Shown one piece after another: positions 16,197 through 61,371 of a DNA stretch of 64,000 bases; position 1 is the stretch's first letter; every line of letters starts with the position of its first letter. Source of the stretch: a virus; the IMG/VR virus record IMGVR_UViG_3300050821_008584, positions 62,001-126,000 of that record. One strand, given 5' to 3'. Under the pieces are notes generated by a model. It searched no databases. It worked only from the letters and a program-made list of their open reading frames with translations, and was not told the DNA's origin. A program made the position numbers and the translations under genes.

Positions 16197-16269
16197 TGTT
16201 AAAATGACGAACCGCAAGAGACTGTGAATCTCCTGCGGTTCTAACACCGATCCTAATTGGGAGGAATCG
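16197..16269 (+). promoter_or_regulatory. Extended -10 promoter, hairpin and leader of the first plus-strand HNH gene
   Basis: TG at 16197-16198 and TAAAAT at 16200-16205 form an extended -10 element. A hairpin follows: 16209-16216 pairs with 16234-16241, then after an A-C mismatch 16218-16221 pairs with 16229-16232. Next come AACACC at 16243-16248 and GGGAGGAAT before the ATG at 16270. The same order is found before the HNH genes at 23777 and 28640. Confidence 0.65.
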
Positions 16270-16767
16270 ATGCCTAGGCGCAAGCGTACCACGGAAGAAA
16301 TCTTTTGGTCCCACGTCAATAAAAACGGCCCAACCCAACCACATTGCCCTGAGCTCGGACCGTGTTGGGAATGGACCGGCGAGCTTCGAGGTTTCGGTTA
16401 TGGCTGCATCTGGATCAGCAGCACAGAACGCGAGATGGCCCACCGCGTCTCTTGGAGGTTGTTCGTTGGGCCAATACCAGAAGGGAAGCGCATCCTGCAT
16501 AAATGCGATAATCGCAAATGCGTACGACCATCCCATCTTTTTGAAGGCACTCAACTCGATAACATGCGGGATAAGTTTGCTAAAGGCCGAGCGAATATGC
16601 TTCGTGGTGAAGACCAGCCCAATAGCAAGCTTAGCGAAAAGGAAGTGTTGGAGATCCGCGCTCTCGCCGCCAATGGCATGACACAACAGGCCATCGCCGA
16701 CAAATTTGGCGTGATTCAGCAGTGCGTCCAACTGATCGTTACTCGCAAACGCTGGAAGCATATTTAA
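16270..16767 (+). CDS. HNH homing endonuclease with HTH tail (plus strand)
   Basis: The 165-residue protein is a free-standing HNH endonuclease of the zinc-loop type: CPELGPCWEWTG, AHRVSWRLF, LHKCDNRKCVRPSHLF and GTQLDNMRDKFAKGR are the canonical segments. The C-terminal 45 residues form a helix-turn-helix (MTQQAIADKFGV) that would guide DNA binding. It runs against all neighbours, fills the gap between the gpJ-like gene and the next tail gene, and has its own promoter. The SD is GGGAGG. Confidence 0.85.
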   Translation: MPRRKRTTEEIFWSHVNKNGPTQPHCPELGPCWEWTGELRGFGYGCIWISSTEREMAHRVSWRLFVGPIPEGKRILHKCDNRKCVRPSHLFEGTQLDNMRDKFAKGRANMLRGEDQPNSKLSEKEVLEIRALAANGMTQQAIADKFGVIQQCVQLIVTRKRWKHI

Positions 16768-16780
16768 ACCGCAGTGGCGG

Positions 16781-17413
16781 TCACGTACCGAGATAGATAA
16801 GCCGAAGGTGGATCGCATATTGCATCGGAGTCGCACCAACACTTCCATATCCTGTCGTGCTGTAAAATATGTTTGTGCTTGCACGCGCACTGATGACATT
16901 CGGAAATGCTGTCTCGTTAGCACCTACGGTATTAGAGGCACTACCCCCTGAAAAAAACGTTAGGTTTGCAGAGACATTAGTATCCCCTTCATTCCACGAT
17001 AGACTACAGGCAGGCATAGTGGATGAGCTAGTTGCAGCTTGTGTGAGTACCACGTAACAGGTTACGTAATATTGCCCCGTTCCGCCAACTGGCACAGCAT
17101 AAAGGAGCGTACCGATATTGCCTGTTTGAGCGGTGAGGTTAACATCCGCTACGATGTTTGGAGCTGTTAGACCAGGAACCAAAGATGATGTAGGAAGCAC
17201 GGCTAGAGTTCCGCCAGTAACGGCTGGAATTGTCTCCACATGTGTGCCGTCTGCGCTGATGCCAGCACTGAATTGTTGCAATGCAGTAAAATTCTGCGCC
17301 AGATTAAGCGCCGCAAATGTGTTCTGTGCCGCTACTCTTAACCTAGGTATTCCGACGAATAAACCAGCAAGCAATCCGACGCACACTATAATAATTGGTG
17401 CTAGTTTTTTCAT
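16781..17413 (-). CDS. Exported or virion beta-rich protein, 210 aa
   Basis: The N-terminus MKKLAPIIIVCVGLLAGLFVG is a signal peptide or anchor, with a possible VAAQ cleavage site at about residue 30. The rest is Ser/Thr/Gly-rich with many short strands, as in phage fibre or decoration proteins. It overlaps the NlpC/P60 gene by four bases, so it is co-translated with the tail tip. A signal peptide on a tail-module gene is unusual; see findings. Confidence 0.6.
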   Translation of the reverse strand: MKKLAPIIIVCVGLLAGLFVGIPRLRVAAQNTFAALNLAQNFTALQQFSAGISADGTHVETIPAVTGGTLAVLPTSSLVPGLTAPNIVADVNLTAQTGNIGTLLYAVPVGGTGQYYVTCYVVLTQAATSSSTMPACSLSWNEGDTNVSANLTFFSGGSASNTVGANETAFPNVISARASTNIFYSTTGYGSVGATPMQYAIHLRLIYLGT

Positions 17414-17943
17414 TGCGTCTCCCGGTTGAATGGCGAGAAGAATTTTGGAGGGAATCTCATACCGCCATGCAGAAATAAGGCGTCTTTGCTGGCATCGCTA
17501 ATTTGCACTACCCCTTGCATATCTGCGGCTGGCGCATGAATCACTTGATTCGGCCACTCTATGACGATGCCACTATGAGCGTATTGACGTCCGAGATGAA
17601 TCATCACGATGTCGGCTGGTTCCGGCGGCACTTGAATCTCATGCGCAAACTTCAGCATTTCGGCCATATAGCTAGGCTCGCCAGAGTGAAGATGGAATTG
17701 CGGGCTCCAATATCCAGGTTCGTATTCTGGCATAAGACCGACAGATGAATATACGGCTATCAGAAAGCGGCCACAGTCTACGCCATGGCCCTTCACGCAC
17801 GCGTTTGGATGGAACGGTGTCGAAAGCCAAGTCCTGGCTTCGGCAATGACAGCAGCACGTTTAGTGGATTCTTCGCCAGGAATAAATGGTGGATGATAAA
17901 AATCAGGTAGGCTTTGGAACTTCTCTTTTAGTTTTTCGCTCAT
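17410..17943 (-). CDS. NlpC/P60-family tail-tip peptidase
   Basis: Catalytic residues of the NlpC/P60 fold are visible: C57 in GHGVDCGRF, H123 in YAHSGIVIEW and a polar third residue at H136 in VIHAPAA. In siphoviruses and gene transfer agents this protein lies between DUF2163 and gpJ and helps local peptidoglycan cleavage during DNA entry. The gene order here agrees, apart from an inserted GIY-YIG gene upstream (overlap 17903-17943). Confidence 0.8.
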   Translation of the reverse strand: MSEKLKEKFQSLPDFYHPPFIPGEESTKRAAVIAEARTWLSTPFHPNACVKGHGVDCGRFLIAVYSSVGLMPEYEPGYWSPQFHLHSGEPSYMAEMLKFAHEIQVPPEPADIVMIHLGRQYAHSGIVIEWPNQVIHAPAADMQGVVQISDASKDALFLHGGMRFPPKFFSPFNRETQ

Positions 17944-18901
17944 GCCGCTTCCTCACAGCTTTCGCCATTCGTTTCAGCATGAGCGCACTGCGAGCGCTCG
18001 GGGTCATTGATGCCCAAAAGGCTTTGACTCCTGCACGTGCTTTTTTGTGGAAGTTTGGATCTTTTTTCAGGGCCGCTTTGTATCCAACACGTCCTATGCG
18101 CTTTTTCGTTCGTTCCGGCAAAGCGCGAAGTGCTTTGCTGATATTGCGGCCGATCTGACATCGCTTGCTCTTGCTGCGCTTCCGCCAAACTTTTAGGTTT
18201 AACTCCGTGAGCATTTGGGATCGCTTGGCTTTCGGAACCTTCTTCCAACGACGCCGCAATGCTGCTGACTGCTTGCGTGATTCTTCTGGTGTATTCTTGC
18301 GGCCTTTCTGGAACTGCGTAGCCCGCACGCGCTTCTCGCCAGCCTTGCTCCACTTTGGCTTGCCGCGAGCTTTGAGCGTTTCGCTCATGTACTGGCGGTA
18401 CTTCTTGCTGCGCGGTCGTTTGCCTGCGGCAACGATATATGGTCGCATCTTTGCTGCATAACGAGGGTTTCGCCACATCGCCTTCGACATTTTGCTGCGC
18501 CGCTTCCGATATTCCGGTGCTCGAACGGCAGCAAGAAGGGCTGCGTTTTGTTTTGCCCGATATTGCATGTCTTTCCACAGCTGCCTCGTAGCACGCCGTA
18601 ATTTGCGTAACGTTGCCGGTGACGACACAAACGCGCCGCCAGCAGTTATCATAAGGTTCTTGAGTCGAGTCTTTTTGAGGTAGCGTTTCAACCATTTCAG
18701 TTCGGCTTCCTTTGCTCCTCCGCGCATTCCTTGTTCCAAAATACGCATTTGGACCTTGATGCCGAAGCGCTTGCGATGCTGTGCCAGTCGCAGAGACGGA
18801 TGTTTCGTCCGACCAATGTAAATGACACGTTTGTTGATGGAGAGTGCGTATATGAACCAGCGTCCTTTGTATGCATACCATAAGTATAACCTAGATAGCA
18901 C
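17903..18901 (-). CDS. GIY-YIG homing endonuclease with basic repeat tail
   Basis: The N-terminus has a GIY-YIG-type domain: FIYALSINKRVIYIGRT, LAQHRKRFG and a downstream ELKWLKRYL with a glutamate. The remaining 230 residues are extremely Lys/Arg-rich with repeated short units (for example KAMWRNPRYAAKM, ETLKARGKPKWSK, AALRRRWKKVPKA) that resemble NUMOD-type DNA-binding modules. The gene is wedged between the DUF2163 and NlpC/P60 genes and overlaps both. The start is GTG at 18901. Confidence 0.75.
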   Translation of the reverse strand: MLSRLYLWYAYKGRWFIYALSINKRVIYIGRTKHPSLRLAQHRKRFGIKVQMRILEQGMRGGAKEAELKWLKRYLKKTRLKNLMITAGGAFVSSPATLRKLRRATRQLWKDMQYRAKQNAALLAAVRAPEYRKRRSKMSKAMWRNPRYAAKMRPYIVAAGKRPRSKKYRQYMSETLKARGKPKWSKAGEKRVRATQFQKGRKNTPEESRKQSAALRRRWKKVPKAKRSQMLTELNLKVWRKRSKSKRCQIGRNISKALRALPERTKKRIGRVGYKAALKKDPNFHKKARAGVKAFWASMTPSARSALMLKRMAKAVRKRHERKTKREVPKPT

Positions 18902-19850
18902 TTTCTGCGACCGGTACGAAGGGCATCGAACCCAGGTTAATTAAGTTGTTAAATTTATCGCGGCAGGTAGCCAATTGCTTATCGCACCCAGGTGCCATTT
19001 TGAACTGGTCTCCATTAGCGGGAGCCGCAGGTAGCGGCACAAAAAGAAGAGTCTGGCCGCTGGCATTCAGATATAGGCGCACGGTCCTGGTAACACCAAC
19101 ATTCGCTCCGCTGGTAAAAGTGATTAAGCCTTCATCAAAGTAGTGGTCGATATTAGTCATCGTTGTATTGAAAAGCAGATTAAGAGAGCCACTTCCGACT
19201 ATGCTGCCATTGATGTAGAAATTGTTAATGTTCAGCGTACAACCTGCTCCATAAAGATCCCAACGGCACGCCGGCTGATAGACGTGAGCCGGGAACGGTC
19301 GATTGAGCAATTCCTTCTTGCTTTTGATGTCTATTTCAGCGTGACTTCGATCAACCTCTGTGATGTCTGACACATTGCCATGGAAGAGCGTAACTGCGCC
19401 CGCTGAAGTATCGAAGTTGATCGGCCGTGCCGGTTGAGCTCCAGTGCTTCCCATCATCACGCGTTGAATCACGATGTCCGCGTTATCAAACAAGCCGGTG
19501 CCGATCGCTTGGAGGACGGCCTGGCTCTCAACGAGGTTAGTAAGAAGTGCCCAAAGCTGGAGCTTACCTTCATCTACTTCTACGCCGATCTTTTGTGTGA
19601 AGCCAGACCATAACGGGTAGGGGCCGCGGGAAGAAAAGCGCGTGCCGGAGAGTACGACATCATATTCGAAGTCTGTCCACGTGAAGATCGTGCCATCGAA
19701 GAGCGTAATCGTGAACAGATTGCCGACCCAGTAACTGTAGTCTTGAAAAAGCAAGTTCTTGAAAGCCGAGGACGCTGGTTTAATTGGCCACCCCCGACGT
19801 AAAATTGGAAGCGGCCAGAACGCGTGAACACCCCGAAGACGTGGAAACAT
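18891..19850 (-). CDS. DUF2163 (BR0599-like) tail-tip protein
   Basis: The 319-residue protein has the family C-terminal signature GCDKQLATCRDKFNN followed by NLGSMPFVPV, and the central CRWDLYGAGC. This family forms part of the tail hub in gene transfer agents and related phages. It follows DUF2460 and precedes NlpC/P60, which is the expected order. The N-terminal 20 residues, rich in Arg and Pro, vary in the family. Confidence 0.8.
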   Translation of the reverse strand: MFPRLRGVHAFWPLPILRRGWPIKPASSAFKNLLFQDYSYWVGNLFTITLFDGTIFTWTDFEYDVVLSGTRFSSRGPYPLWSGFTQKIGVEVDEGKLQLWALLTNLVESQAVLQAIGTGLFDNADIVIQRVMMGSTGAQPARPINFDTSAGAVTLFHGNVSDITEVDRSHAEIDIKSKKELLNRPFPAHVYQPACRWDLYGAGCTLNINNFYINGSIVGSGSLNLLFNTTMTNIDHYFDEGLITFTSGANVGVTRTVRLYLNASGQTLLFVPLPAAPANGDQFKMAPGCDKQLATCRDKFNNLINLGSMPFVPVAESAI

Positions 19851-19853
19851 ATT

Positions 19854-20852
19854 TTAGAGACGGCATTGTTCGATTTTGATTGACTTAGCTGCCCAGAGAT
19901 AAAGCAAATTATTGTCAAATGGAATCGAATCATCTGAAAATCGGCACGGCCAGTAATAGCCATAAGTTCCAGTTATCGCCACACCACTGCCAGGAGGGCT
20001 GGTAAAAATTAACTGGCCGATTTGATTGATTGAGTAGCCAGAAACCTGCAGGACAGCATTCAAATAAATATTGGGTGCCGGCGTCGTGAATGGAGTTTGA
20101 ATCGCCTCGGTGAATCCGCCTATCGTACGGACCAACTGAAATGTCGTCGTCGAACCATCGCCAGTACCTATCGATTGCTGAACAGGTGGATTGCCACCCA
20201 TGCCAACGATCCCGACCGAATCCCATGGACCTTGGCCTTGCGCATAACCTGGAGTCACATCATCAAAAAGGAAAACACCAAAGCGGCCTTGCATCTGATT
20301 ATAGAAACCTTCGATCACACGCATATCCGTTTCAGTCGCGCCAATCATGATGTCGCCTGGATTATCTTTAATATAGCCAGCGTCGTTAGCCCCGCCGCCG
20401 TAGCGAATCTCCCAGCTCTTCAGCGGATTTGCCCAGTAAGCAATTCTCACTTCAGCTCCAGAGCTCATCCGTTGAACCTGGTTCTCCCACATCTGTGTAC
20501 GAGTCACCGGCCAAGCTTTACCGCGAATTGTCGGATAAACGGGAAAGGCCACAGGAAACCCCACGAAAGCAACTGTAAATAAATCGCCAGCCAGCGTAAT
20601 GAACAAACCATACGTCAGGCCGGATGGAGAAATCAGAGTAATTGATTCTGGATACAAAGCATTGAAAGTTACCGAAGTCTGGGTCAACCCTCCGACTATT
20701 GTGATGCCGATCTGAAACGATGCGGAATTTGTTGGATCGTTCAAGTAGACGTTTGGCGTAGAGCCTAGAGAGCCCTTGGTTTGTGTCAAATCGCCGTTGT
20801 CGAGAACGTTTACTGACCATAGGTAGCCCGATGAATCTCTGAGATTGAACAT
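19854..20852 (-). CDS. DUF2460 tail protein with N-terminal short-module repeats
   Basis: The C-terminal 220 residues match DUF2460: the FYNQMQGRFGVFLFDD segment and the end GTYGYYWPCRFSDD followed by IKIEQCRL. In gene transfer agents this protein links tail tube and hub. The first 110 residues are an addition with two copies of the short module also found in fibre genes (DSSGYLWSVNVLDNGDL and SPSGLTYGLFITLAGDL). The fusion suggests that this module decorates the tail tip. Confidence 0.8.
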   Translation of the reverse strand: MFNLRDSSGYLWSVNVLDNGDLTQTKGSLGSTPNVYLNDPTNSASFQIGITIVGGLTQTSVTFNALYPESITLISPSGLTYGLFITLAGDLFTVAFVGFPVAFPVYPTIRGKAWPVTRTQMWENQVQRMSSGAEVRIAYWANPLKSWEIRYGGGANDAGYIKDNPGDIMIGATETDMRVIEGFYNQMQGRFGVFLFDDVTPGYAQGQGPWDSVGIVGMGGNPPVQQSIGTGDGSTTTFQLVRTIGGFTEAIQTPFTTPAPNIYLNAVLQVSGYSINQIGQLIFTSPPGSGVAITGTYGYYWPCRFSDDSIPFDNNLLYLWAAKSIKIEQCRL

Positions 20853-20873
20853 TAGTTAGTCCATCAGCGTGCA

Positions 20874-23105
20874 TTAAGGTCCAATCGTGATTGCCGATAC
20901 TTGCGTAGGAGGTGCAGGTAGAGCACCGCTATAGCAGGTGTTGGCGTTGAAAGAATGAACTGCATTTACCGCGGCGCTTCCTCCTGTGGCCGACCCTAGG
21001 CCGGAAGTCGCAGTGAACGTCAGCGTGGTTCCTGCTACCGTCGCTATCTGCCAGAGACGGTTGTAGCCAGCGACCGAAGAGCCCGTGATCCAAAACGATT
21101 GATATTGCGTGAAGCTCGCCGGCGCACTTGAACTAAGCGTAGCGGTCGCCGTGGTTCCCGCCTCACTGATTGAGGTTATGGAATCCGAAACGGAATAATT
21201 TGTATCGTAGCTTGTATTGTTGAAACACAACTGCGCGGGGATCGCATAGCCGAAGCCGCCCGGATCAGGGCCACCAGAAAGATCGGGGCCAATCGCAGGA
21301 TAGTGAAGTGCGGAGTGTCCGATTCCGTCGTTGTACCACGAGGGCTTGGACGAATAATAAAACGATGTAGGAAGCGCAGTACTGGACGGAACGGTCTGAG
21401 CATAAGAGCCCAAACCAGTCGGGACTTCCGAAGTGCTGCTACACGTCGTCGACCAGCCTGGATCGCCAGAATTCCCGCACCACCTGACTGCTGCGGTAAC
21501 GACATCGTAATTGCCCCAAAAATAAGAGAAAGGAGCGACATTGGTGTCGTTGTAAACAATGCTGTAGTTGCAAGCCTGTCCGCCCGCCCATCCTAGTGCA
21601 TAGATCGAGACATTCCCTGTAGTCGTGCAGCCAGTATTATCGACATTCGAAGAGGGGATGTCTTTGTACGTCGTATGGTAGCCGGACTCACCCATCACAT
21701 TACCAATCAGGTTGTAATAGCGTGAATAGGCTTCAATGTCCGCGACCATCGTGCTCGCGACCTTGAATGGACCGTCCCTCCCGGTCCAGCGGTTCCGAAA
21801 TGCAGTTACCATCCAACTCGTGCCGTGAATATCGTCGGAAGCAATTTTTGCTCCAACATTGCCTTCAAACAGATTGAAATAGGAACCGTCTTGGTGAGAA
21901 GGGTAGGAATCTGATTGCTCGAAATTGGGGGCCGTGCCGCCCGCAGTGTAGTAATTGTCCACCGAGAAGTTGTACGCAAAGACGTTTCCCGCTCCGCCAT
22001 TCATTATTTCAGCACCGGCAACGTGTTGAAATATATTGTTTGCGTCCAGAATGTCGTCAGACATGAAAGATACTTCGTGCCCATAACTCAGATTAGAACC
22101 GTTCGACCCGTAAGAATAGTTATTCTGGATCGTCAAATGCGACGACAAATAGCTCCAGATATTATTTCTGTCCGGCGGTGAGCCATTGTTGATCGTGCGA
22201 ACGCCTGTTACCCAGCAGTTTTTAGCCCAACCAAAAAAGATGAATGACCCCGCACTACCTGGGCTATCAGTCGTGAGAGAACCATCAAGCGTAAGGTTTT
22301 CAACGCCATCGTTCTGAACTGGCAGATGGGTATTCCAGCCTGCCGCAGGCGAGAAAGTTCCCGACCAGATCGGCGAATACAGACCAGGAGAAATGCCAAC
22401 TGCGCCTCCTGCGCCTCCTCCGGGGATAGAAGTTACAGTGACAGTTTGCGTTTGACTGTTGCCAGAAGGACCGTTTTGGCCTCCTTGCTCCGAACAATCT
22501 CCTAACGCTCCAGTATTCTGACAATTCCAAATCGTGCCCGGATCGGTTGCCTGATCTGCTTGCCAAAGCACTAAAAGAGCACCGATTTGCAAGTTTGTGG
22601 TATTGCTCAAAGTGATCGATGTTGCACCTTGGGCGTATCCAGCCGTCCAGTTCGCAGAGTTTTGAACGTTATCCCGAATGTCAAAATTATCTTGGCCTGT
22701 AATACAAACAGCACCGCCGAGCCCAAAACATCCGGTCCCCGGTCCTGCTGTAAACTTAATAATTGTCTGGTCTGCTCCGGCACCGCGCAGGACAACATTC
22801 GACTTTGAAGCAAAATCTATCTTGGCATTTAGAACGAAGGTGCCAATCCCTAGCAGCACGTATTGGTTTACGCCACAAGCTGCGATGGCGCTGTTGATCG
22901 TAGTTGGAGCACCAGGAGTGCCCACCGTCCCGTAGGCCGCGATGGTTGAACCGCATTGAGTCCAAGCTGCGTCTGGAATTCCACCGACGACGCCAGCAGA
23001 TGACCAATCTATAGCGCGGCCTGCGGAGATGACTCCAGACCAGAGTTGCGCGTGCGCCGGAATGGCTAAAAGCAAGATGGCCGCAGCTATAACGAAGAGC
23101 TTCAA
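20874..23105 (-). CDS. Exported right-handed beta-helix protein, pectate-lyase-like
   Basis: MKLFVIAAAILLLAIPAHAQ is a clear signal peptide with AHA-Q cleavage. The 720-residue mature part has the periodic Asn/Gly-rich repeats of a parallel beta-helix (for example LTIQNNYSYGSNGSN, DILDANNIFQHVAG, NVFAYNFSVDNYY). Such folds are usual for tailspike depolymerases and secreted polysaccharide lyases. The start is TTG at 23105, overlapping the upstream stop (TTGA) with GGAGGG eight bases before. Whether it is a virion spike or a secreted enzyme cannot be told. Confidence 0.7.
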   Translation of the reverse strand: MKLFVIAAAILLLAIPAHAQLWSGVISAGRAIDWSSAGVVGGIPDAAWTQCGSTIAAYGTVGTPGAPTTINSAIAACGVNQYVLLGIGTFVLNAKIDFASKSNVVLRGAGADQTIIKFTAGPGTGCFGLGGAVCITGQDNFDIRDNVQNSANWTAGYAQGATSITLSNTTNLQIGALLVLWQADQATDPGTIWNCQNTGALGDCSEQGGQNGPSGNSQTQTVTVTSIPGGGAGGAVGISPGLYSPIWSGTFSPAAGWNTHLPVQNDGVENLTLDGSLTTDSPGSAGSFIFFGWAKNCWVTGVRTINNGSPPDRNNIWSYLSSHLTIQNNYSYGSNGSNLSYGHEVSFMSDDILDANNIFQHVAGAEIMNGGAGNVFAYNFSVDNYYTAGGTAPNFEQSDSYPSHQDGSYFNLFEGNVGAKIASDDIHGTSWMVTAFRNRWTGRDGPFKVASTMVADIEAYSRYYNLIGNVMGESGYHTTYKDIPSSNVDNTGCTTTGNVSIYALGWAGGQACNYSIVYNDTNVAPFSYFWGNYDVVTAAVRWCGNSGDPGWSTTCSSTSEVPTGLGSYAQTVPSSTALPTSFYYSSKPSWYNDGIGHSALHYPAIGPDLSGGPDPGGFGYAIPAQLCFNNTSYDTNYSVSDSITSISEAGTTATATLSSSAPASFTQYQSFWITGSSVAGYNRLWQIATVAGTTLTFTATSGLGSATGGSAAVNAVHSFNANTCYSGALPAPPTQVSAITIGP

Positions 23106-23470
23106 CGTGGCACCCTCCAGTTCAAGGTTATGGGCCCCGGTGTAATTGGCAAAGTGGTGCTGTTACATACCTTGAACGAGACAGTATTCAGACCTGGATA
23201 CTTGATGATCGTTAGAATACCTCCTGATGTGGGGCTATAGCCGGTAACTCCGGTCGGATCGGTATTGAAATCAGCAATGATGTTGTCGGTACTCAGTGTG
23301 CCCGGTGCTGAGATGGTGACCACACTGGCGCACGTTCCGGAGTTAATGGCACCGGTTCCAAGAGCTGCAGTACCATTGGCGATTGTCACGGTAGTGTAAA
23401 CGGTCTGTGAATAACCTCGTCCAATGAAGAACGCGAGCACACACAGCAGGCAAAGTGCGATTCTCTTCAC
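23102..23470 (-). CDS. Small exported beta protein, 122 aa
   Basis: The start is GTG at 23470, because GGGAGG just upstream is a good SD; an ATG at 23485 lies before that SD. The signal peptide is VKRIALCLLCVLAFFIGRGYSQ (read M at position 1). The mature domain is about 100 residues with two cysteines and a single beta-sandwich-like pattern. It overlaps the beta-helix gene, suggesting that the two are produced together. Confidence 0.6.
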   Translation of the reverse strand: MKRIALCLLCVLAFFIGRGYSQTVYTTVTIANGTAALGTGAINSGTCASVVTISAPGTLSTDNIIADFNTDPTGVTGYSPTSGGILTIIKYPGLNTVSFKVCNSTTLPITPGPITLNWRVPR

Positions 23471-23508
23471 GTCAGAACCTCCCATTCCTTATCGCGCCAC
23501 GGATCATG

Positions 23509-23706
23509 TCAGTTAACAAAATCCTCTTTGACTCTTTTTGCCTGTAGGATGTGTAATGTTGTGCCATCCCACGTAAACTGATCGCCAACTTCGAATTCAA
23601 CCGCCGTATCTAAATCGAGCGACCATTTCTCACCAGCTTCGGTTTCTAATTGCAAAACGTTGCCGTCTTTTGAAACAACCGTCAGAATCTGACGTTCGAC
23701 AGCCAT
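23509..23706 (-). CDS. Small acidic protein, 65 aa
   Basis: An SH3-like or small beta-barrel pattern is suggested by alternating strands (QILTVVSKDGNVLQLETEAG, then FEVGDQFTWDGTTLHILQ). There is no signal peptide. The gene lies between the tape measure and tail-tip genes, with the plus-strand HNH unit inserted immediately upstream. The function is unknown. Confidence 0.6.
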   Translation of the reverse strand: MAVERQILTVVSKDGNVLQLETEAGEKWSLDLDTAVEFEVGDQFTWDGTTLHILQAKRVKEDFVN

Positions 23707-23776
23707 GTTAGAATGCGAAAGCGCGAGGACGCGTAAACGCCCCCGCGCTGAACACCACGCCTACTAAGGAGGCGCG
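23706..23776 (+). promoter_or_regulatory. Extended -10 promoter, hairpin and leader of the second plus-strand HNH gene
   Basis: TG at 23706-23707 and TAGAAT at 23709-23714 form the extended -10. The hairpin pairs 23720-23725 with 23744-23749, then 23727-23728 with 23741-23742 and 23730-23731 with 23738-23739, broken by A-C mismatches. AACACC at 23751-23756 and AAGGAGGCGCG before the ATG complete the leader. The layout matches those at 16197 and 28572. Confidence 0.65.
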
Positions 23777-24675
23777 ATGCTTTCTCTCGATTCTACTGCC
23801 AAACACGTCAAGAACCAGTGCCTTGATTCCACTCTTGCCGAAAGATTCTGGCAAAAGATAGATAAGAACGGCCAGGTTCCAAAGCATTGCCCAGAACTTG
23901 GCCCATGCTGGATTTGGCTTGGTTATAAAAAAGAGGATGGCCGCGGCCAAATTGGTACGAGCAAGGGGACTCAGCATGCGCACAAGGTCTCTTGGGAATT
24001 GCACAATGGGCCGGTACCTGACGGTTATTGTGTGCTCCATCATTGCGACAACATGGGCTGTCCCAATCCAGATCATCTGAGGGTGGGTACTCAAGCGGAG
24101 AATATCGCTGAAATGATCGCCAGAAATAGATCTTACCATCCAAGTGGGATAGATTATTGGATTAGACGTATCCGGACGCAAGAACGCAAACCACCTCCGA
24201 CGTTGGAAGAACGCTTTTGGGCTAAGGTTAACAAAAAGGGACCTATGCCAGAAGATTGCCCTGAATTGGGGCCATGCTGGATTTGGACTGGATACCGTCA
24301 GCGCCAAGGCTATGGGCATATGAGCATCGACGGCAGAATCAGTAGAGTTAATAGAGTGGCGTGGCTTATACAAACAGGAGAAGATCCGGAGACATTAGCG
24401 TTCTGCACAAGTGTGACAATCCGCCATGTGTACGTCTTTCGCATCTTTTCCTTGGCAACCATAAAGAGAATGCTGATGACATGATGGCAAAAGGAAGAAA
24501 TAAATCCTTCCCAGGCTCGCAAAACAAAAATTCTATACTTAATGAGGATCAAGTTAGAGAGATAAGATGGAGAGCACGAACGGAAAGACTGGCAGATATC
24601 GCGCGAAGCTTTAAGGTCCATATTGCAACAATTTGGGGTATAGTTCACAGGCGAAGTTGGAAACATGTCCTCTAG
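23777..24675 (+). pseudogene. Tandem double-HNH endonuclease gene with a frameshift
   Basis: The reading frame from 23777 encodes one complete HNH unit (CPELGPCWIWLGYK, AHKVSWELH, LHHCDNMGCPNPDHLR) and then the start of a second (CPELGPCWIWTGYR, VNRVAWLIQTGEDP). Near 24400 the frame is lost; the second unit continues in another frame as VLHKCDNPPCVRLSHLF and ends at 24675. One missing base between about 24395 and 24405 explains it, and restoring it gives a 299-residue double-HNH protein with a C-terminal helix-turn-helix. It could be a true mutation, a recoding event or a sequence error. The stop overlaps that of the tape measure gene (shared CTAG). Confidence 0.75.
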
Positions 24676-27026
24676 AATCTCCCGTTTCGGATGGCTCCGC
24701 GCGCTAAAGAGACAAAAGTGCGTTGGTTGCGATATAGAAAACTACGCATACTTTCACTGTCCATTGCGTGGATATGAACATTCGTCGGATTAGCGCCTAT
24801 CCCACCGCCGCCAGGACTTAACGCTTGCTGTAATGGTCTAGAAATCCCAGCAGGGAGCACCATTTCCCCTTCGTGCACATTGAGGGGCATGTTCCGTGGC
24901 ACGATCGCGCCTTTCTGCGCGGCAGCGAATGCGTTGAAGGCCATAACTTCAGAGAAGGCTGTGGCCGCCGCGCCTGCCGCCAAGCCCGGACCCACTACAG
25001 GAACCGCAGCTTCGGCGGCATAAGCTTCGGCGGCAGCCACGCCAGCATATTGCGTAATGGTCGCAGTGGCCGATGCCGCCTGAATTGCCTGCTTTTCCGC
25101 AGCTGTAGTAGTATCCTGAATCACCTGCTGCTGGCCCATCAGAGCATGCACAATCGTCATGGCAACATGCGTGGTAATCCATTTCATAAGCATTTGTTCT
25201 AGGGAATGAACCATGTTCATGACTAGTTCGCCGCCCAACTTAATGAAGGCGAACTTTACGGACTCAGTTCCTTTGATCACACCGTCGAAGGCAGTCTCGA
25301 ACGGCTGCATGAACCGCATCATGGTGGACGCCCAGTATTGCTGGATCTGATTAGCCGTTTGCTGATTGGAGAGCTTGATCTGGCCGTCGATCTCTTGCAT
25401 CTTTGCAGCAGCTTGTTTCTTGGCATCGACGATTTTGTTTTGTAACTCTTGCCATTTCGCTAGCAGTGCTGCGTCGGCGGCATTTTCCGGCACTGCCCGC
25501 GGTGCTGTCCCCACGCCTATACCGCTAATAGACCCCAGCTCCGCAGCATGCGAACCCATGGCGTCGCGCTGTGCCTCTAGGCTTTTGACAACAGCGTCGG
25601 CCTTTTCCTGTTCTAGCCGCTTCTGCGTTTCTAGCTCATCGGTTTGTAGCTTTCCTAGGTCTTTAGATTTGTGAGGAGCCGATTCTAGAGATACGCGAAG
25701 CTTTTCCTTCTGCATCTCAGCATGCTGCTTTGCGGCAATCTCCTGAGCTCCTATCGATATCAGTGCGGCTTGTTCTTCACCGCTCCGAAGAGCGGCCAGA
25801 TAATCGTTTTCAAACTTGACTTTTTCTACTGCGGCTTCTGATGCAGCTCGCACCTCTCTATCGCTTGATGAGGAAACAGCCAAGCCCATCTCTTCTTCCG
25901 CCTTAGTCCTATTTTTGGTGGCGGCGATCTGCAAATCGTAGGCCTTCACAGCGTCCTTGCCCGTCTGATCCCAGATCTCTCGCAATTTTTTCTCTTGCTC
26001 TGCCACCTCTTTGGCTAGATCCGCCGTTTCCTTTAGCTTGTCGGTTGGAAGCTTGACGAGCTCTAGGTTCTGTCCTTCCTTTGCATAGTCTCTTGCTTTT
26101 TCTCCGGCTTCAGCCGCACGCTTGGTAAGATCGTCCCATTCTTTGCTGCCTTCTCTGACGAGAGCTTGCTGTTCCATCCATGGGCGAATCGCAGTTTCTG
26201 GTACTCCTTGTTCCCGCATGGATTGCGCTGCGGTCTTGTCACGCTGGGCCAAAAGATCTCGTTGTACGGCAAGTTCTGCCGCGGCATCTGCGGTCTTCAA
26301 TAGTGCTGCAGCGTGAGCATCTTTTGCCGATACTGCTTCGAGCTCGGATCCTTTGAGGCCAATCTCGTTCAATTCCATCTGCTGGATCTTTAGATCGGTG
26401 GTGTACTTCATCTCCTCTGCGTTTGCCTTGAGGGCATCGGCATAAAGTCTTTGAGTTACCGCGTCCCACCCTTCATACGCAGACACAACTTCGCCTATCT
26501 TGCTAATCATCGCGCCGAGCATTTCCACGAAACCGATAGCTAGGAAGAGAGGGAAAACATCGCTGATGATCGGAATCAAACTTGGTATGCGGGAAGCGAC
26601 GCGCGCCAAGCCGTATTCAATGCCACCGATGCTTCCGGTGAGTGCGCCTAATTCTTCTCTAACCTTAGCACCGGCCATGGCACTCGCTTGCATGCTCACG
26701 CCAGCCCCGGTTGCGGCCTCGGCGACCGTTGTGAGAGCTGCGGCTTCCACGCCTGCGGCACTTGCTGCCGCCGCTGCTGCTGTAGCTGCTTCCGTTGCGC
26801 TGCTGCCAAAATGCATTAGGGCTTGAGCAGCTTGTTCTGCCGTCAATCCTTGAGCTTGAAAGCGAGCCGCTTGAGCTAAGACAGCATCTCCGGCCCTTTG
26901 GGCATCGGCAGCAACTTGTTTGAACTTGTCAGCCAGACTTTGTACGGCCGCGCCAGCAGCATTGGTACCGCTGACGATCGGGCCCACATCCATAGATGCA
27001 GAAATTCGAAGGTTATCGTCTGCCAT
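24672..27026 (-). CDS. Tail tape measure protein, 784 aa
   Basis: The protein is long, Ala-rich and mostly helical, with coiled-coil stretches (about 30-120 and 330-560), a hydrophobic region near residue 150 (RIPSLIPIISDVFPLFLAIG) and an Ala/Gly-rich C-terminus ending in a basic tail. These are the usual features of a siphovirus tape measure. It follows the two tail assembly chaperone genes and precedes the tail tip. By the common rule of about 0.15 nm per residue the tail would be near 118 nm. It ends in a TAG that interlocks with the convergent HNH stop. Confidence 0.85.
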   Translation of the reverse strand: MADDNLRISASMDVGPIVSGTNAAGAAVQSLADKFKQVAADAQRAGDAVLAQAARFQAQGLTAEQAAQALMHFGSSATEAATAAAAAASAAGVEAAALTTVAEAATGAGVSMQASAMAGAKVREELGALTGSIGGIEYGLARVASRIPSLIPIISDVFPLFLAIGFVEMLGAMISKIGEVVSAYEGWDAVTQRLYADALKANAEEMKYTTDLKIQQMELNEIGLKGSELEAVSAKDAHAAALLKTADAAAELAVQRDLLAQRDKTAAQSMREQGVPETAIRPWMEQQALVREGSKEWDDLTKRAAEAGEKARDYAKEGQNLELVKLPTDKLKETADLAKEVAEQEKKLREIWDQTGKDAVKAYDLQIAATKNRTKAEEEMGLAVSSSSDREVRAASEAAVEKVKFENDYLAALRSGEEQAALISIGAQEIAAKQHAEMQKEKLRVSLESAPHKSKDLGKLQTDELETQKRLEQEKADAVVKSLEAQRDAMGSHAAELGSISGIGVGTAPRAVPENAADAALLAKWQELQNKIVDAKKQAAAKMQEIDGQIKLSNQQTANQIQQYWASTMMRFMQPFETAFDGVIKGTESVKFAFIKLGGELVMNMVHSLEQMLMKWITTHVAMTIVHALMGQQQVIQDTTTAAEKQAIQAASATATITQYAGVAAAEAYAAEAAVPVVGPGLAAGAAATAFSEVMAFNAFAAAQKGAIVPRNMPLNVHEGEMVLPAGISRPLQQALSPGGGGIGANPTNVHIHAMDSESMRSFLYRNQRTFVSLARGAIRNGRF

Positions 27027-27358
27027 TAAGATTTAACCTCTGTCTTGAGACCGGAGATTTCGAGCACCTTAAAGTACATCGCATTGATGGCTGGCAAATC
27101 AAAATCCCTCTTCAAAACCTCTAAGGTGAAATCTCCATTTGTTGGCTGACCATCTATGGGCCTAATCGTTGTTGCCTTTTTGATCGATTCAATGACGGTG
27201 CGTTGCGTAAGACCCATCCAATCTTCCGATTTTGTTGCTTCTTTGTTAGCGAGCAGTTGCGCTGTCTCTTCCTGAAACTTCTCAGCCTCGGCCCAACTCA
27301 TTGCCGCAAGCCTTACACTAACGAATTCATCGATCTTGAAATCAACTACACGAACCAT
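27026..27358 (-). CDS. Short tail assembly chaperone, 110 aa
   Basis: The start is ATG at 27358 (MVRVVDFKIDEF); a longer frame reaches 27439 but would overlap the upstream gene. It lies directly before the tape measure gene, where the gpG or gpGT chaperones are encoded. It aligns with the first half of the 225-residue protein encoded upstream: VSVRLAAMSWAEAEKFQEET against ISVRIAPLTFDETEQYIEEN, and LKRDFDLPAINAMYFKVLEISG against IKSELDLAFFLYLHEQILNKSG. The assignment rests on position and this paralogy. Confidence 0.65.
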   Translation of the reverse strand: MVRVVDFKIDEFVSVRLAAMSWAEAEKFQEETAQLLANKEATKSEDWMGLTQRTVIESIKKATTIRPIDGQPTNGDFTLEVLKRDFDLPAINAMYFKVLEISGLKTEVKS

Positions 27359-27371
27359 CGTTTCACCTCGG

Positions 27372-28049
27372 TTACGGAACGTTAAGATGATCGCCGCGTT
27401 TAGCGCGGGCGACTGCTTCTTGAATGTGGCCTGGAGCACAATCGAGATGTCGTGCTCCTGTAAAGGAATTCATGGCCATACGGACTTCTTCAGCAGACGA
27501 TGAATGCCGTGAAGCTATAGATTTACGCTCCGGTGCATAGCTTTCATCGCCAACTTCATTAGCGCGATGCTCTCGCCAGTTTTGCTTCTTCGGGTCATAT
27601 CCAACTTGTGCGCGCAAAAGCACGTGCGCTGGCGGATAATCGAGCCAGTACTCAAGCAACTCTTGCACGAACGGGAAATCCATTGCTCCTACTTCATTTG
27701 GCGTCATGCCAAGTTCGGTAACGATGCGGCAGCGAATGAAGGCAAAATCGACATCATGGTCCTCTTCCGGTGCGACAGTAATGAGCCCACTCTTGTTCAG
27801 AATCTGTTCGTGCAAATAAAGGAAGAAGGCAAGATCCAACTCTGACTTGATTCGCTCGATCGTCCATGCCTCTCGGCCAGCCGCCTTATTTAATGCTCGG
27901 CATACCGTCTCCAAACTGCGCTCTGTCCATTCTCGGTGGGTATGTTTCGCCGACGCGCGATTTTCCTCGATGTACTGCTCGGTTTCATCGAAGGTCAGCG
28001 GCGCGATACGAACGGAGATCCCATCCATGTAGACTTCGTGTACGCGCAT
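27372..28049 (-). CDS. Long tail assembly chaperone, 225 aa
   Basis: The first 100 residues are a paralogue of the downstream 110-residue protein. The C-terminal 120 residues are an extension with EVGAMDFPFVQELLEYWLDYP and a basic, probably flexible end. In many siphoviruses a short and a long chaperone are made from one gene by a -1 frameshift; here two separate genes in tandem appear to encode the short and long forms. No slippery site is needed in this arrangement. Confidence 0.65.
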   Translation of the reverse strand: MRVHEVYMDGISVRIAPLTFDETEQYIEENRASAKHTHREWTERSLETVCRALNKAAGREAWTIERIKSELDLAFFLYLHEQILNKSGLITVAPEEDHDVDFAFIRCRIVTELGMTPNEVGAMDFPFVQELLEYWLDYPPAHVLLRAQVGYDPKKQNWREHRANEVGDESYAPERKSIASRHSSSAEEVRMAMNSFTGARHLDCAPGHIQEAVARAKRGDHLNVP

Positions 28050-28299
28050 TTACTCTTGCTCTTGGATTCAGTTTGGATTTTAACTGCTGAGCGGCTTGCG
28101 AGCGTCCTCGCTTGGGTTAGCCGCGGTATTCCTGAACAGCTTTTGCGGATTTTAGGAGTAGCTCAATATTTTCAACGAGAGCGTCTCCAGATTAAAGGGC
28201 CCAGCAAGGGCTAGGCCCCAAGGGAGAATCAAATAGTCTCGGCAGGATTGCGAGGCAGTCTGATTCTGGACCAGATGATAAAACCGTCAAGGCAATCCG
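28050..28299 (-). terminator. Non-coding gap with a GC-rich hairpin
   Basis: No convincing gene lies here. A hairpin at 28197-28218 pairs GGGCC with GGCCC and AGC with GCT around a four-base loop; on the minus strand it is followed by TTTAAT, a weak terminator-like tail. It could end the transcript of the small zinc-ribbon gene upstream. A short minus-strand reading frame (VENIELLLKSAKAVQEYRG, near 28130-28180) looks protein-like but has no clear start. Confidence 0.35.
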
Positions 28300-28512
28300 T
28301 CAAGCAGCGATTGCAACTGGTTTCTCTTTTAGTAGACGCCGCTTGATCCGAACAAAGAACCATTCAATTTTGGAAAACCGCGGAGGAAAGGCAATCCGAA
28401 TCAGCTTAACTGCGCAAGGACCGCAGATGCCCTTCTTCATGGAAGATTGACAAGCAATAAATTCAGTGATCTGATGTCCGCATTCGAGGCATTCGTAGGT
28501 TATGTCTGGCAG
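28300..28512 (-). CDS. Small zinc-ribbon protein, 70 aa, with a non-standard start
   Basis: The frame ending at the TGA at 28300 encodes LPDITYECLECGHQITEF, then SSMKKGICGPCAVKL and a basic tail, with four cysteines in two CxxC pairs plus one more Cys. No ATG, GTG or TTG precedes the first CxxC in this frame; CTG at 28512 after AGAGGG is the best start, or the start codon has been lost. The strict zinc-ribbon pattern makes chance unlikely. It lies between the HNH gene and the tail chaperones. Confidence 0.5.
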   Translation of the reverse strand: MPDITYECLECGHQITEFIACQSSMKKGICGPCAVKLIRIAFPPRFSKIEWFFVRIKRRLLKEKPVAIAA

Positions 28513-28571
28513 ATACCCTCTGAAGAGCTACATCCTGTCCCTTCATATGCGTGAAAAGCAACACTGTCAAA

Positions 28572-28639
28572 TGATAAAATAAAAGGGCCTGCGCTGGACA
28601 CGCAGACCCCGAAGAACACCGCACCTGACAGGAGGCGCG
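28572..28639 (+). promoter_or_regulatory. Extended -10 promoter, hairpin and leader of the third plus-strand HNH gene
   Basis: TG at 28572-28573 and TAAAAT at 28575-28580 form the extended -10. The hairpin pairs 28585-28587 (GGG) with 28607-28609 (CCC), then after a C-A mismatch 28589-28593 (CTGCG) with 28601-28605 (CGCAG). AACACC at 28615-28620 and AGGAGGCGCG before the ATG follow. It shares order and spacing with the leaders at 16197 and 23706. Confidence 0.65.
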
Positions 28640-29134
28640 ATGCCCTGTCCTACAGATAATACTCTCAAAGAACGATTCTGGAAGCATGTCGACAAGAATG
28701 GGCCTATCCCTGCGTCGTGCCCGGAGTTAGGGCCGTGCTGGATTTGGACCGGATCTAAAAATCAGGATGGTTATGGACAAATTGGAACGAGCAAAGGATT
28801 ACGCGTAGTCCATCGCGTATCATGGGAACTGCACGGCAATACAATACCAGAGGGCCATGAGCTGTTTCATCATTGCGACCAACCTAATTGTATTCGACCT
28901 ACTCACCTATTCACTGGAACGCGCCAGGACAACATGCAAGATATGCTTAAAAAGGGAAGGCAGCATTTTCCAGCAGGCGACGAACACTATCCTACGCGCT
29001 TAAAATTCGAGCAAGTGTGCGAAATTAGAAAGCTGTGGGAATCCGGAGTTCCGCAAACTGAACTAGCCAAGCGATTCAATAGGAAACCTAATACGATATC
29101 CAAGATCGTGAATCGGAAACGATGGCGCACGTAA
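28640..29134 (+). CDS. HNH homing endonuclease with HTH tail (plus strand)
   Basis: This 164-residue protein is a close relative of the products of 16270 and 23777. It has CPELGPCWIWTGSK, VVHRVSWELHG, FHHCDQPNCIRPTHLF, GTRQDNMQDMLKKGR and a C-terminal helix-turn-helix (VPQTELAKRFNRKPNTISKI). It is intact and has its own promoter and a strong SD (AGGAGG). It sits between the tail chaperone operon and the major tail protein gene, on the opposite strand to both. Confidence 0.85.
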   Translation: MPCPTDNTLKERFWKHVDKNGPIPASCPELGPCWIWTGSKNQDGYGQIGTSKGLRVVHRVSWELHGNTIPEGHELFHHCDQPNCIRPTHLFTGTRQDNMQDMLKKGRQHFPAGDEHYPTRLKFEQVCEIRKLWESGVPQTELAKRFNRKPNTISKIVNRKRWRT

Positions 29135-30846: not shown

Positions 30847-33800
30847 CTAACTCGCCACTTTTATGTTAGCTGCAATTACAAGGCTATTCACTGAAGGCGT
30901 TCCCTGTACCAGCGGCGTAACCGAAATTGAAGCAAAAATGAACCCAATGTTCGGCGGCTGCAACTCAAGGAAGACAGCCCCAGAGCTCGCCGGCACGGCC
31001 ATGTTCGGAATTCGATTGATCCAATTCTGATAAGTTGGTCCGAATTTGTCGATGCTGACCGTTTCAGGTTTCAGCAGTGCGCCAGCGTCGATAATGCTTT
31101 GGCCTAATTCGGCGGTTCTCTTCGCTAAATACGTCGGCTGCGAAACCGGTTGCCACCACTTATCGAAGCTAACGATTTCCGTTAAGACAAGTGTTTCGCC
31201 GGAAGCTGCCTGTATAGCGGAATTGAATGGCCTGTTGATCCATGCCTGATAATCAGGCCCCCACTTGTCGATCCTGATCGTCTCCGGCTTCGGATCAATA
31301 ATGAACTGCTGTAGCTCCGCAGAACGCTTTGGCAGGTACGTTGGTTGTGAAGTCGGCTGCCACCACTTGTCGACCAGGATCTTCTCTGGCGGCGGTATTA
31401 CGGTCTGAGTGAGATCAGCCGAGCGGATCGGCAAATATGTCGGCTGCGAAGCTGGTTCCCACCACTTGTCGAGCGTGATGGTTTCGATGGGCGGCTGAGG
31501 CATATAAATGCCGCCCGATGCCTGCTGAACTGCGGAATTGAATGCTCCTGGTACGCGGCTCGGATAATCTGGATTGAATTTATCGATGCGAACTGCTTCT
31601 TGCAAAGTTAGCTGCTTCGCATCGATTGCCGCCATGCCAGAAGCGGCTTGGGCGGCGTAGACCTTCAGTTTGAGCGAAAGATTGGCGGCCGGGTATTCAG
31701 GCTGTTCCATCCACGCATCGACGTGGACCGCTTCTTTTTGCGTGAGGAGTTTAGAATCAATTACCGCTTGATCTAGAACTGCCGACCGCTTCGGTAGATA
31801 TGTGGGTTGCGAGGCTGGCTGCCACCATTTGTCGATGGTGACAACTTCGCCAGACTTGAGCAGAACAGTCGGATCAATGACGTTTTGATAGAGGACGATG
31901 CAACGCGCAGCTAACCGCGGTGCGATGTCTGCATAATCAGCCTGGAACTTTTCAACAAAAACAGTTTCTTGTGCGGTCGAAACAACCGTGGCAGCTCCAG
32001 AAGTTGGTTGTGGTATCGCACGCGGCAACAGATCTGGATAGACAGGTTGGAATTCAGTTAGGGATATGGCCGGCTGAACGATTTGAATTAATTCCGAAGT
32101 TCTCTTTGGTAGATAGGTTGGTTGTGAAGTTGGCTCAAACCATTTGTCGACGGTGACGATTTCGCCAGCGAAGACTGGCCCTGTCCAGTTTGAGGATACT
32201 TGTGCGGCAATTGGCGACAACCGCGTTACGCGATCAACATAGCTCGGGCCGAAACGGTCAATGCTAACCGTTTCTTGCTGCGTCAGAACCTTAGGATCAA
32301 TTAATACTTGCCTGAGATCAGCAGACCGCTTCGCTAAATATGTTGGCTGACTAGCCGGTTCGAACCACTTATCGAGCAGGACAATCTCGCCTGATTTTAG
32401 TAAGACCGTGGGGTCGATTACTTGCTGGTCAAGAACTGGAGACCGTTGCGCCAGGCGAGGAACAGCATCTGCATAATCAGCCTTAAATTTCTCAACGCTT
32501 ACAGATTCTTTTGCTGTCGAGACGACGGTGACGGCACCGGACGCCGGTTGTACGTAGGTGCGCGCTAGCCAAACCGGATAATCCGGCAACCATTTGTCGG
32601 CCAGCACGACTTCGGTCGGCACCAGAGGAACGAAAGAAGTCGCAGACACGTAAAGCTGCGCAGGGAACGGCTTCGGGAAAGCGCCCGGATAATCCGCATA
32701 CATCGGCGAATAGGCGCCGTGCAGTGTTGCGAATGCCTGCTGATGCCCGGGAACGGTGAAGAGATCGTATGGATACGGAGGCCGTACGGGATCCGGCTGC
32801 TCGTGCCACCACTTGTCGAGCGTGACGACTTCAGCGCCAGCAGCTACGACTTGGACGAATGCCGGTTCAGGTACAAGCGAGGGAATACGGCTTGGCTGGA
32901 ATAATGGCTGAGACGCAGGCGAGAACCATTTATCCAGCGTGACCGTTTCACTGATCAGGCCGACGAATGCGCTGCCAGAATTGACGCCATAGCGACGACG
33001 CCGCGCAACTTCTGGTGCCGGTTGACCCCATTTGCTTATAGAAACCGATTCTTGCTGCGTGAGCAGGCGTGAATCAGTGACGTCCTGATCCAGTACCGGC
33101 GATCTCTTCAGGTAGATTGGCTGACTTGACGGCTGCCACCACTTATCGATGGTTACAACTTCGCTAACGACAACCGGTCCCGTATAGCCCGATGCGACAT
33201 ATGTCGCTTCTGAATATGGTCGCGGCAACCAATCCGGATACGTTGCCTTGAATCTACTAATCGTGACCTGCTCTTGTTGGGTGAGCAGTTTCGTATCAGT
33301 GACCGACTGACCCTGCTCTGCGCCAGTTCTCTTCGGCAAATAGGTTGGTTGAGAAGGCGCTGCGTACCACTTATCAAGAGTGACGCTCTCGCTGATCAGG
33401 CCAACATAGGCACTTCCGGAGCTAAGGCCCCTGCGAACGCGCGCGAGCCAAGCTGGGTAATTCGGATGCCAATGATCTTCGTAGCCGTGGATATATGCGA
33501 ACGCCTGTTGATGGCCAGGAACTGTGAAGAGGTCAAAGGGATACGGTTGCTTGAGTGGCTGTGACGGCGGTTCGAACCATTTGTCGATGGTGACCGTCTC
33601 TGCCACTGGCACAGTAACGGGAGCAATAGTCTGGGTCAGATCAACTGCGCGCTTCGAATAAGTTGGCTGCGAGGGAGGCTCAAACCACTTATCCAAAAAT
33701 AGCGGTACAGGGGGAACGAACGTACTGCCGGAACACACACCGTAATTGCGACGCCGCAAATGAATCGAAGGCGGTGGCTGGCCGAACTTATCTACAAACG

Positions 33801-34137
33801 GTTCTTCCGGTTCGGTTGCCTGTTCTGGATCCGATGGAGCTTGTCCCGAAGATGCCGAGAGGGTTGCGTAGTAATTCCACTGCGAGGTCCGCGGAACGAT
33901 ATCCGTGTAAGCCGGCCGCCAATTGCCGTTACCTGGGTAATCTTTAACGTCGAAATTGCGCTGGCTACCGGACGAAGCTGCCGCAAGGACAATAGCGAAG
34001 GCCGCAGCACGTAAAGCCCAATTACGTTGCGGCGGTGTAGGAGGCTGCATCCACGCTTCAGGGTGAACTGTTTCGGCAGTATTCGGAGGGGTTACGACCG
34101 GCTGGACTTTCTCTTGATATTGCCAGCGTCTCGGCAT
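30847..34137 (-). CDS. 1096-residue protein made of about 25 Trp/Pro-rich repeats
   Basis: From residue 25 to about 1065 the protein is a string of roughly 35-45-residue units that alternate between two types. Type one reads like V-T-[ILV]-D-K-W-W-x-P-x-S-Q-P-T-Y-L-x-K-R; type two reads [IV]-D-K-F-x-P-x-Y-x-x-W-L-x-R with an A-S-G near its end. Spacers often carry LLTQQE or LLKSGE. The first unit (AWMQPPTPPQRNWALRA) is matched by the N-terminus of the protein encoded at 35567-35983. There is no signal peptide. It is encoded inside the tail module and may form an extended fibre or tail-surface filament. I know no family with this repeat. Confidence 0.7.
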   Translation of the reverse strand: MPRRWQYQEKVQPVVTPPNTAETVHPEAWMQPPTPPQRNWALRAAAFAIVLAAASSGSQRNFDVKDYPGNGNWRPAYTDIVPRTSQWNYYATLSASSGQAPSDPEQATEPEEPFVDKFGQPPPSIHLRRRNYGVCSGSTFVPPVPLFLDKWFEPPSQPTYSKRAVDLTQTIAPVTVPVAETVTIDKWFEPPSQPLKQPYPFDLFTVPGHQQAFAYIHGYEDHWHPNYPAWLARVRRGLSSGSAYVGLISESVTLDKWYAAPSQPTYLPKRTGAEQGQSVTDTKLLTQQEQVTISRFKATYPDWLPRPYSEATYVASGYTGPVVVSEVVTIDKWWQPSSQPIYLKRSPVLDQDVTDSRLLTQQESVSISKWGQPAPEVARRRRYGVNSGSAFVGLISETVTLDKWFSPASQPLFQPSRIPSLVPEPAFVQVVAAGAEVVTLDKWWHEQPDPVRPPYPYDLFTVPGHQQAFATLHGAYSPMYADYPGAFPKPFPAQLYVSATSFVPLVPTEVVLADKWLPDYPVWLARTYVQPASGAVTVVSTAKESVSVEKFKADYADAVPRLAQRSPVLDQQVIDPTVLLKSGEIVLLDKWFEPASQPTYLAKRSADLRQVLIDPKVLTQQETVSIDRFGPSYVDRVTRLSPIAAQVSSNWTGPVFAGEIVTVDKWFEPTSQPTYLPKRTSELIQIVQPAISLTEFQPVYPDLLPRAIPQPTSGAATVVSTAQETVFVEKFQADYADIAPRLAARCIVLYQNVIDPTVLLKSGEVVTIDKWWQPASQPTYLPKRSAVLDQAVIDSKLLTQKEAVHVDAWMEQPEYPAANLSLKLKVYAAQAASGMAAIDAKQLTLQEAVRIDKFNPDYPSRVPGAFNSAVQQASGGIYMPQPPIETITLDKWWEPASQPTYLPIRSADLTQTVIPPPEKILVDKWWQPTSQPTYLPKRSAELQQFIIDPKPETIRIDKWGPDYQAWINRPFNSAIQAASGETLVLTEIVSFDKWWQPVSQPTYLAKRTAELGQSIIDAGALLKPETVSIDKFGPTYQNWINRIPNMAVPASSGAVFLELQPPNIGFIFASISVTPLVQGTPSVNSLVIAANIKVAS

Positions 34138-61217: not shown

Positions 61218-61238
61218 ATCCTTTTCATCCATCCCGCA

Positions 61239-61256: not shown

Positions 61257-61282
61257 ATTTCATGTCAGGAAAACTTTACATT

Positions 61283-61367: not shown

Positions 61368-61371
61368 AATC

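Follow-up and report, generated by a model that had tools for sequence, protein, structure and literature searches.

The leaders of three plus-strand HNH genes in the 64,000-nucleotide stretch of viral DNA analyzed here (the window) probably each form a compact antisense-RNA control unit at the head of a free-standing homing-endonuclease gene. The preliminary description viewed these leaders as self-contained expression cassettes, an idea that is right in outline; self-contained expression, predicted from the extended -10 element of each cassette, is well supported, and the hairpin of the leader, judged by its sequence, is most likely part of a minus-strand antisense RNA. The three genes are as follows.

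16270..16767, plus strand: HNH_3 homing-endonuclease-like protein 1, 165 aa (Pfam HNH_3, 8e-16; phrog_59; weak C-terminal helix-turn-helix match)
23777..24484, plus strand: HNH_3 protein 2 (second HNH domain frameshifted, remainder in frame at 24361-24675)
28640..29134, plus strand: HNH_3 homing-endonuclease-like protein 3, 164 aa (Pfam HNH_3, 5e-11; HTH_38, 6e-7)

All three proteins scored above the Pfam HNH_3 cut-off and matched phage HNH endonucleases. Only protein 3 had a DNA-binding domain above the cut-off (HTH_38), the helix-turn-helix of protein 1 was weak, and Pfam yielded no helix-turn-helix match to protein 2. The window genes are putative free-standing HNH homing endonucleases, for which site-specific DNA cleavage and homing are predicted. 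An extended -10, a hairpin, AACACC, GGAGG, and ATG precede each gene exactly as first described, and within the 164,879-bp record this order is found ahead of these three HNH_3 genes only. On direct reading, the sense-strand elements are located as listed.

16197..16205, plus strand: sense extended -10 of cassette 1, TGTTAAAAT, which fits the TGNTATAAT element
23706..23714, plus strand: sense extended -10 of cassette 2, TGTTAGAAT
28572..28580, plus strand: sense extended -10 of cassette 3, TGATAAAAT
16209-16241, 23721-23748, and 28585-28609: imperfect hairpins of cassettes 1, 2, and 3, respectively
16243, 23751, and 28615, plus strand: starts of AACACC in cassettes 1, 2, and 3
16270, 23777, and 28640, plus strand: ATG following GGAGG in cassettes 1, 2, and 3

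AACACC and ATG are separated by 21, 20, and 19 bases in cassettes 1, 2, and 3, respectively. The pattern AACACC-N8-16-GGAGG was found 3 times in the 64-kb window compared to 0.22 expected, and none of 100 shuffles reached 3; the entire 164,879-bp record contained these 3 copies and no others, and the backward control contained none. Comparison of the window leaders to Rfam (4227 models) gave no match at the gathering score, and relaxed searches gave sub-threshold, chance-level matches only.

The preliminary description had proposed a covariance search for the same leader before other HNH genes; a leader of this kind was present in viral contigs ahead of other HNH genes, and the absence named as a refuting outcome did not occur. 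Approximately 50 comparable leaders were identified, mostly ahead of HNH genes and sometimes ahead of other endonucleases, with protein-guided scans yielding one at ∼20 of the first 80 HNH genes. Such a leader comprises an extended -10, a hairpin that often has one bulged C, the linker RRCAC, a ribosome-site hairpin, and ATG; the TGNTATAAT element is present upstream of many of them. A covariance model built from ten leaders detected further copies ending at the start codons of HNH genes outside the training set, and a second model located more leaders in 30 viral records (several copies in some), the partners including an HNH-family protein, an endonuclease VII protein, RadC, and an antirepressor (Bro-N). 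A protein-blind DNA pattern matched nine contigs, seven of which contain a true palindrome (two are identical in sequence), and a homing endonuclease lies downstream in 7 of these 7: six are HNH proteins and one is LAGLIDADG-like, with a Pfam LAGLIDADG_3 score of 21.1 bits, just under the 22.5 cut-off, and two visible LAGLIDADG-like motifs. The model is not fully specific, because some matches lie ahead of RadC, Bro-N antirepressor, or small-protein genes and 8 others, in 6 of 96 Myxococcota genomes, lie ahead of unrelated genes; the Myxococcota matches inspected showed no clear endonuclease and no clear antisense -10. Covariance models R1 and R2 did not detect the window leaders, so the tie of these leaders to the CCCCG-type (R1/R2) family is by architecture and not by score; on sequence, we regard them as similar in architecture to that family rather than as proven members. 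The order of elements, the linker RRCAC, a mid-stem defect, and the antisense -10 are common to both. The pattern AACACC-N10-14-GGAGG-ATG was encountered in at least 120 stretches of viral contigs, and among the matches listed none preceded an HNH gene outside the window. No model match was obtained in six named-phage HNH regions, where the annotated HNH genes are mostly in co-directional operons; one leader used as a DNA query against named phages gave chance-level matches only; and no leader was found in 249 genomes of one phylum, which is uninformative because few candidates were scored.

The mismatches in the plus-strand stems of the three cassettes are all A-C or C-A (two in cassette 2), confirming the earlier observation, and to this we add that they correspond to G-U wobbles on the minus strand, such that the minus-strand hairpin is fully paired. 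A second minus-strand hairpin is built from the start codon, the ribosome site, and AACACC; this last motif would be kept in the window group because it is the complement of the 3' arm of the second stem. On the minus strand, each cassette folds into two paired hairpins, with a variable tail rich in U.

16203..16276, minus strand: predicted antisense RNA of cassette 1, two hairpins and weak U tail (CGTCATTTT); fold -34.8 kcal/mol, z -6.4 (16203-16273)
16241-16209, minus strand: scored terminator-like site of cassette 1
23713..23783, minus strand: predicted antisense RNA of cassette 2, two paired hairpins and tail TTTCGCATTCT; fold -41.5 kcal/mol, z -5.5
28576..28649, minus strand: predicted antisense RNA of cassette 3, two hairpins and U-rich tail TTTTATTTTAT; fold -43.1 kcal/mol, z -6.6
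28610-28584, minus strand: scored terminator-like site of cassette 3

On the basis of mononucleotide shuffling, the minus folds of the three cassette regions range from -35 to -43 kcal/mol with z values of -5.5 to -6.6. A plain free-energy comparison of the strands is confounded by the A-rich plus strand, so the comparison was redone with dinucleotide shuffles; the fold z was -3.88 for the minus strand versus -2.24 for the plus strand, and the minus value was lower in 45 of 51 leaders (p 5e-9; this and the other p-values overstate independence because many leaders are interrelated). Leaderless HNH genes exhibited no strand difference in fold z. In 45 aligned leaders, the cells of the plus-strand hairpin included 423 Watson-Crick pairs, 2 G-U, 18 A-C, and 4 others; the aligning model tolerates G-U and not A-C, and the 18:2 ratio of A-C to G-U runs counter to that preference. 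A strand-specific mutation bias could lie behind the excess of A-C over G-U, but it would create no promoter. Counts of this type provide a way to identify the RNA strand of a palindrome. For the same 45 leaders, 95.1% of the cells were paired compared to 70% after shuffling, double changes were seen at all ten pairs (98 cells versus 25), and pairing fell to 32-51% when the partner was slid by one to three columns. These covariation counts use the corrected structure, which pairs column 13 with 33, whereas models R1 and R2 carry 13 with 32.

The earlier proposal of selection on RNA structure is borne out by the covarying hairpin, but not with a sense-mRNA hairpin as the target, for the minus strand folds better and possesses both a promoter and a terminator-like end. 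We consider it unlikely that the selected structure resides in the sense mRNA, with a 5' hairpin stabilizing the message and a second hairpin holding the ribosome site: the 18:2 excess of plus-strand A-C over G-U and the better minus-strand folding after composition control argue against it, and it leaves unexplained a minus-strand -10 at a fixed coding position. In its favor, the window leaders have a plus-strand CCT that pairs with AGG of the GGAGG, a stem overlaps the ribosome site in many other leaders, and T4-type homing endonucleases use ribosome-site hairpins (PMC2988022). Plus-strand stems over the ribosome site are possible, although mostly weaker than the minus-strand stems, and such a structure would be compatible with antisense control, a combination reported for IS200 (PMC12594629).

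The minus-strand -10 score showed a single peak at plus +11 to +16 in the 51 leader-bearing genes, and the best score was 2.67 for these genes (n = 51) compared to 1.12 for leaderless HNH genes (n = 77; p 9e-16). The column consensus of the antisense -10 is TGnTA(T/G)A(A/C)T, with TGn preceding the best element in 16 of 51 leader-bearing genes versus 8 of 77 controls (p 0.005). A G is present at +4, seven bases beyond the antisense -10, in 74% of cases and is likely the antisense transcription start. The antisense -10 also recurs where the leader heads a gene of another type (ten leaders, p 5e-7) and within the window group (p 2e-4, from five sequences of which three are one lineage). No antisense -35 element was found in the leader family, so the antisense promoter rests on the extended -10. 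The corresponding elements of the window are given below.

16283..16288, minus strand: candidate antisense -10 of cassette 1, TACGCT with TGG ahead (weak, 3/6)
23790..23795, minus strand: antisense -10 of cassette 2, TAGAAT
28656..28661, minus strand: antisense -10 of cassette 3, TATTAT (shared with L012/L249; L201 has TAGAAT at this position)

Past the hairpin, the minus strand of the family has 37-71% T at eight positions, and the terminator-like hairpin lies ∼60 nt downstream of the antisense promoter; within the window the U tail is good in cassette 3 and poor in cassettes 1 and 2. The sense promoter of the family is TANNAT, located 11-18 bases upstream of the hairpin in most leaders and preceded by TGN in 18 of 45. 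The structure, the strand that carries it, both promoter motifs, and the conservation are shown by sequence.

These features are best explained by the following antisense control. Transcription from the sense extended -10 promoter would provide an mRNA with its ribosome site in the leader, whereas the convergent extended -10 promoter at about codons 4-7 would give rise to an antisense RNA of 65-75 nt. This RNA would begin close to the start codon, form two hairpins, and terminate at the second of these and a U-rich tail adjoining the sense promoter. Because GGAGG and AUG would lie within the stretch of leader to which this RNA is complementary, translation should be blocked by denying access to ribosomes, and the sense/antisense duplex may be exposed to RNase III. 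We infer that the RNA is produced, that it represses, and that repression depends on copy number; endonuclease output would be limited as copy number rises, and by analogy, synthesis of the enzyme might take place shortly after entry, while few copies are present, and cease with multiplication of the genome. Self-limitation of cutting by free-standing homing endonucleases in replicating phage is known mainly from the T4-like phages. The mechanism is directly testable, and the covariance model offers a handle for finding such leaders.

The window HNH genes run antisense to their neighbors, with the hairpins directly before the next minus-strand gene. This orientation agrees with the suggested escape from the minus-strand phage program, but the suggestion covers only part of the family, in which leaders also lie beside co-directional neighbors of recognizable function encoding RNase H (L177), RusA (L234), and a glycosyltransferase (L193). 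The same orientation would suit a minus promoter and hairpin that serve the neighboring phage gene as an embedded promoter or insulating terminator, and T4 endonuclease genes do embed promoters of downstream genes (PMC2988022). We judge such a role improbable, given those co-directional neighbors and a terminator-like hairpin situated so soon after the promoter in the family. A minus-strand terminator-plus-promoter junction for the neighbors was considered and rejected: a TTGACA promoter adjoining cassette 3 made it appealing there, but cassettes 1 and 2 and the co-directional cases do not fit.

It is very improbable that the palindrome is a DNA operator for the endonuclease's own helix-turn-helix. 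Autorepression of this kind is described for I-TevI, which binds an operator over its own promoter (PMC2988022), and helix-turn-helix matches lie at the C termini of proteins 1 and 3; however, the sequence of the stem changes freely with its pairing intact, a preference for A-C over G-T on one strand is not expected of duplex DNA, and the leader is common to unrelated protein families. That the small structured RNA adjoining an HNH nuclease gene serves the nuclease as a guide or partner, as in IscB/OMEGA, is scarcely credible for a leader that also heads LAGLIDADG-like, endonuclease VII-type, Bro-N, and RadC genes and has no Rfam match.

Antisense control of this kind is known from IS10 and IS200, and its proposed homing-endonuclease version is apparently widespread. 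In IS10, the 69-nt RNA-OUT gives multicopy inhibition of Tn10 transposase (PMC5006887), and RNA-IN/RNA-OUT resembles the proposed unit in its convergent promoters, an antisense RNA directed at the translation start region, and a mobile-element enzyme as target (PMC5006887); here, in contrast, the predicted RNA spans the leader in full, contains two hairpins, and is found at the head of several unrelated phage homing-endonuclease families. The antisense RNA art200 of IS200 supplements a ribosome-site hairpin, and together they curb the mobile-element gene tnpA (PMC12594629), a transposase gene in place of the HNH and other homing endonucleases considered here. The phage homing endonucleases I-TevI, I-TevII, I-TevIII, segB, and Aeh1 mobE likewise have ribosome-site hairpins, and seg43(25) has a hairpin ahead of its ribosome site, but in the T4-type and Aeh1 cases the structures act in the sense mRNA together with promoter choice, and the available portion of the source describes no antisense RNA (PMC2988022). 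Type I toxin-antitoxin systems also control a small gene, often one located on mobile DNA, by an antisense RNA encoded in cis, whereas the proteins targeted here are endonucleases of 150-330 aa rather than small toxic proteins. Phage morons are genes with their own promoter inserted between phage genes; the cassettes share both properties and differ by their predicted antisense-RNA control unit. In the open-access literature searched, no paper describing control of homing endonucleases by antisense RNA was found. If the proposal is true, homing endonucleases join IS10 and IS200 among the mobile elements that restrain themselves through RNA.

Tentatively, and with somewhat less than even confidence, we suggest that the antisense-RNA head is portable, independent of the protein, and exchanged among unrelated mobile phage genes, with the antisense promoter lying in the first codons of each partner. 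The partners suggested for such a head are HNH_3, other HNH, LAGLIDADG-like, and endonuclease VII-type proteins, and perhaps the antirepressor and RadC.

The claim that the cassettes move as units is supported indirectly by a site that is HNH-less in several relatives, by similarity to contig G001 that starts at the -10, and by the presence of the leader before unrelated endonuclease families. No HNH gene was found near the site-3 neighbor in ten related loci (L153-L161 and L163), some of them near-identical and one of which ends 141 bases past the gene. For sites 1 and 2, G001 has no counterpart HNH gene, and divergence is too great to define exact borders. The site-3 HNH gene is present in the window, G001, and L162. 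Contig G001 (123.7 kb; L012/G001) has a 68% identical HNH gene, which shares both its leader and its neighboring gene with the window copy; its DNA similarity to the window begins at 28575, in the sense -10, and extends into the neighbor, and its cassette has an identical stem, a different loop, and AGCACC replacing AACACC. At the same site, L162 carries a decayed two-domain HNH gene preceded by the -10 TACAAT, a hairpin of other sequence, and a ribosome site.

The site of the third leader-bearing HNH_3 gene of the window (cassette 3, ATG at 28640) is followed by a TTGACA-type promoter on the minus strand (28520-28570), and such a promoter was also seen in L152, L162, L160, and L153. It is present at this site even when the HNH gene is absent, and in L160, a related contig of that kind, it lies immediately after a strong hairpin and T run. 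The cassette 3 site of the related contig L162 is occupied by a decayed HNH gene (near 10780-11470) with two domains, which resembles the plus-strand gene of the second window cassette (23777-24675), a tandem fusion of two HNH_3 domains of which the second is broken by a frameshift.

Five copies of the leader were found in a single 27-kb viral contig (L172, G035), each preceding a paralogous HNH gene, and the N-terminus MQL.F is conserved among these paralogs. Other structures also were observed upstream of HNH genes. In L250 (about 1780-1883), from a Dehalococcoidia metagenome-assembled genome (MAG), this position is taken by two long inverted arms that match almost perfectly (AAAAGTGCCCTCCTTTACG ... 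CGTAAAGGAGGGCACTTTT) and do not resemble the leader of the cassettes, and in L015/L016 a large hairpin follows TAGAAT ahead of an HNH gene belonging to a different group.

The related phage contig L249/G001 was deposited also within an Acidobacteria MAG, which hints at Acidobacteria as a possible host of that phage. DNA comparison of the window with G001 gave multiple off-diagonal matches, by which repeated segments (31100-33660) were recognized inside the gene at 30847-34137, which encodes 1096 residues. A cluster of 13 tRNA genes, including several for Leu, two for Pro, and others, is located on the minus strand at 61136-63938.
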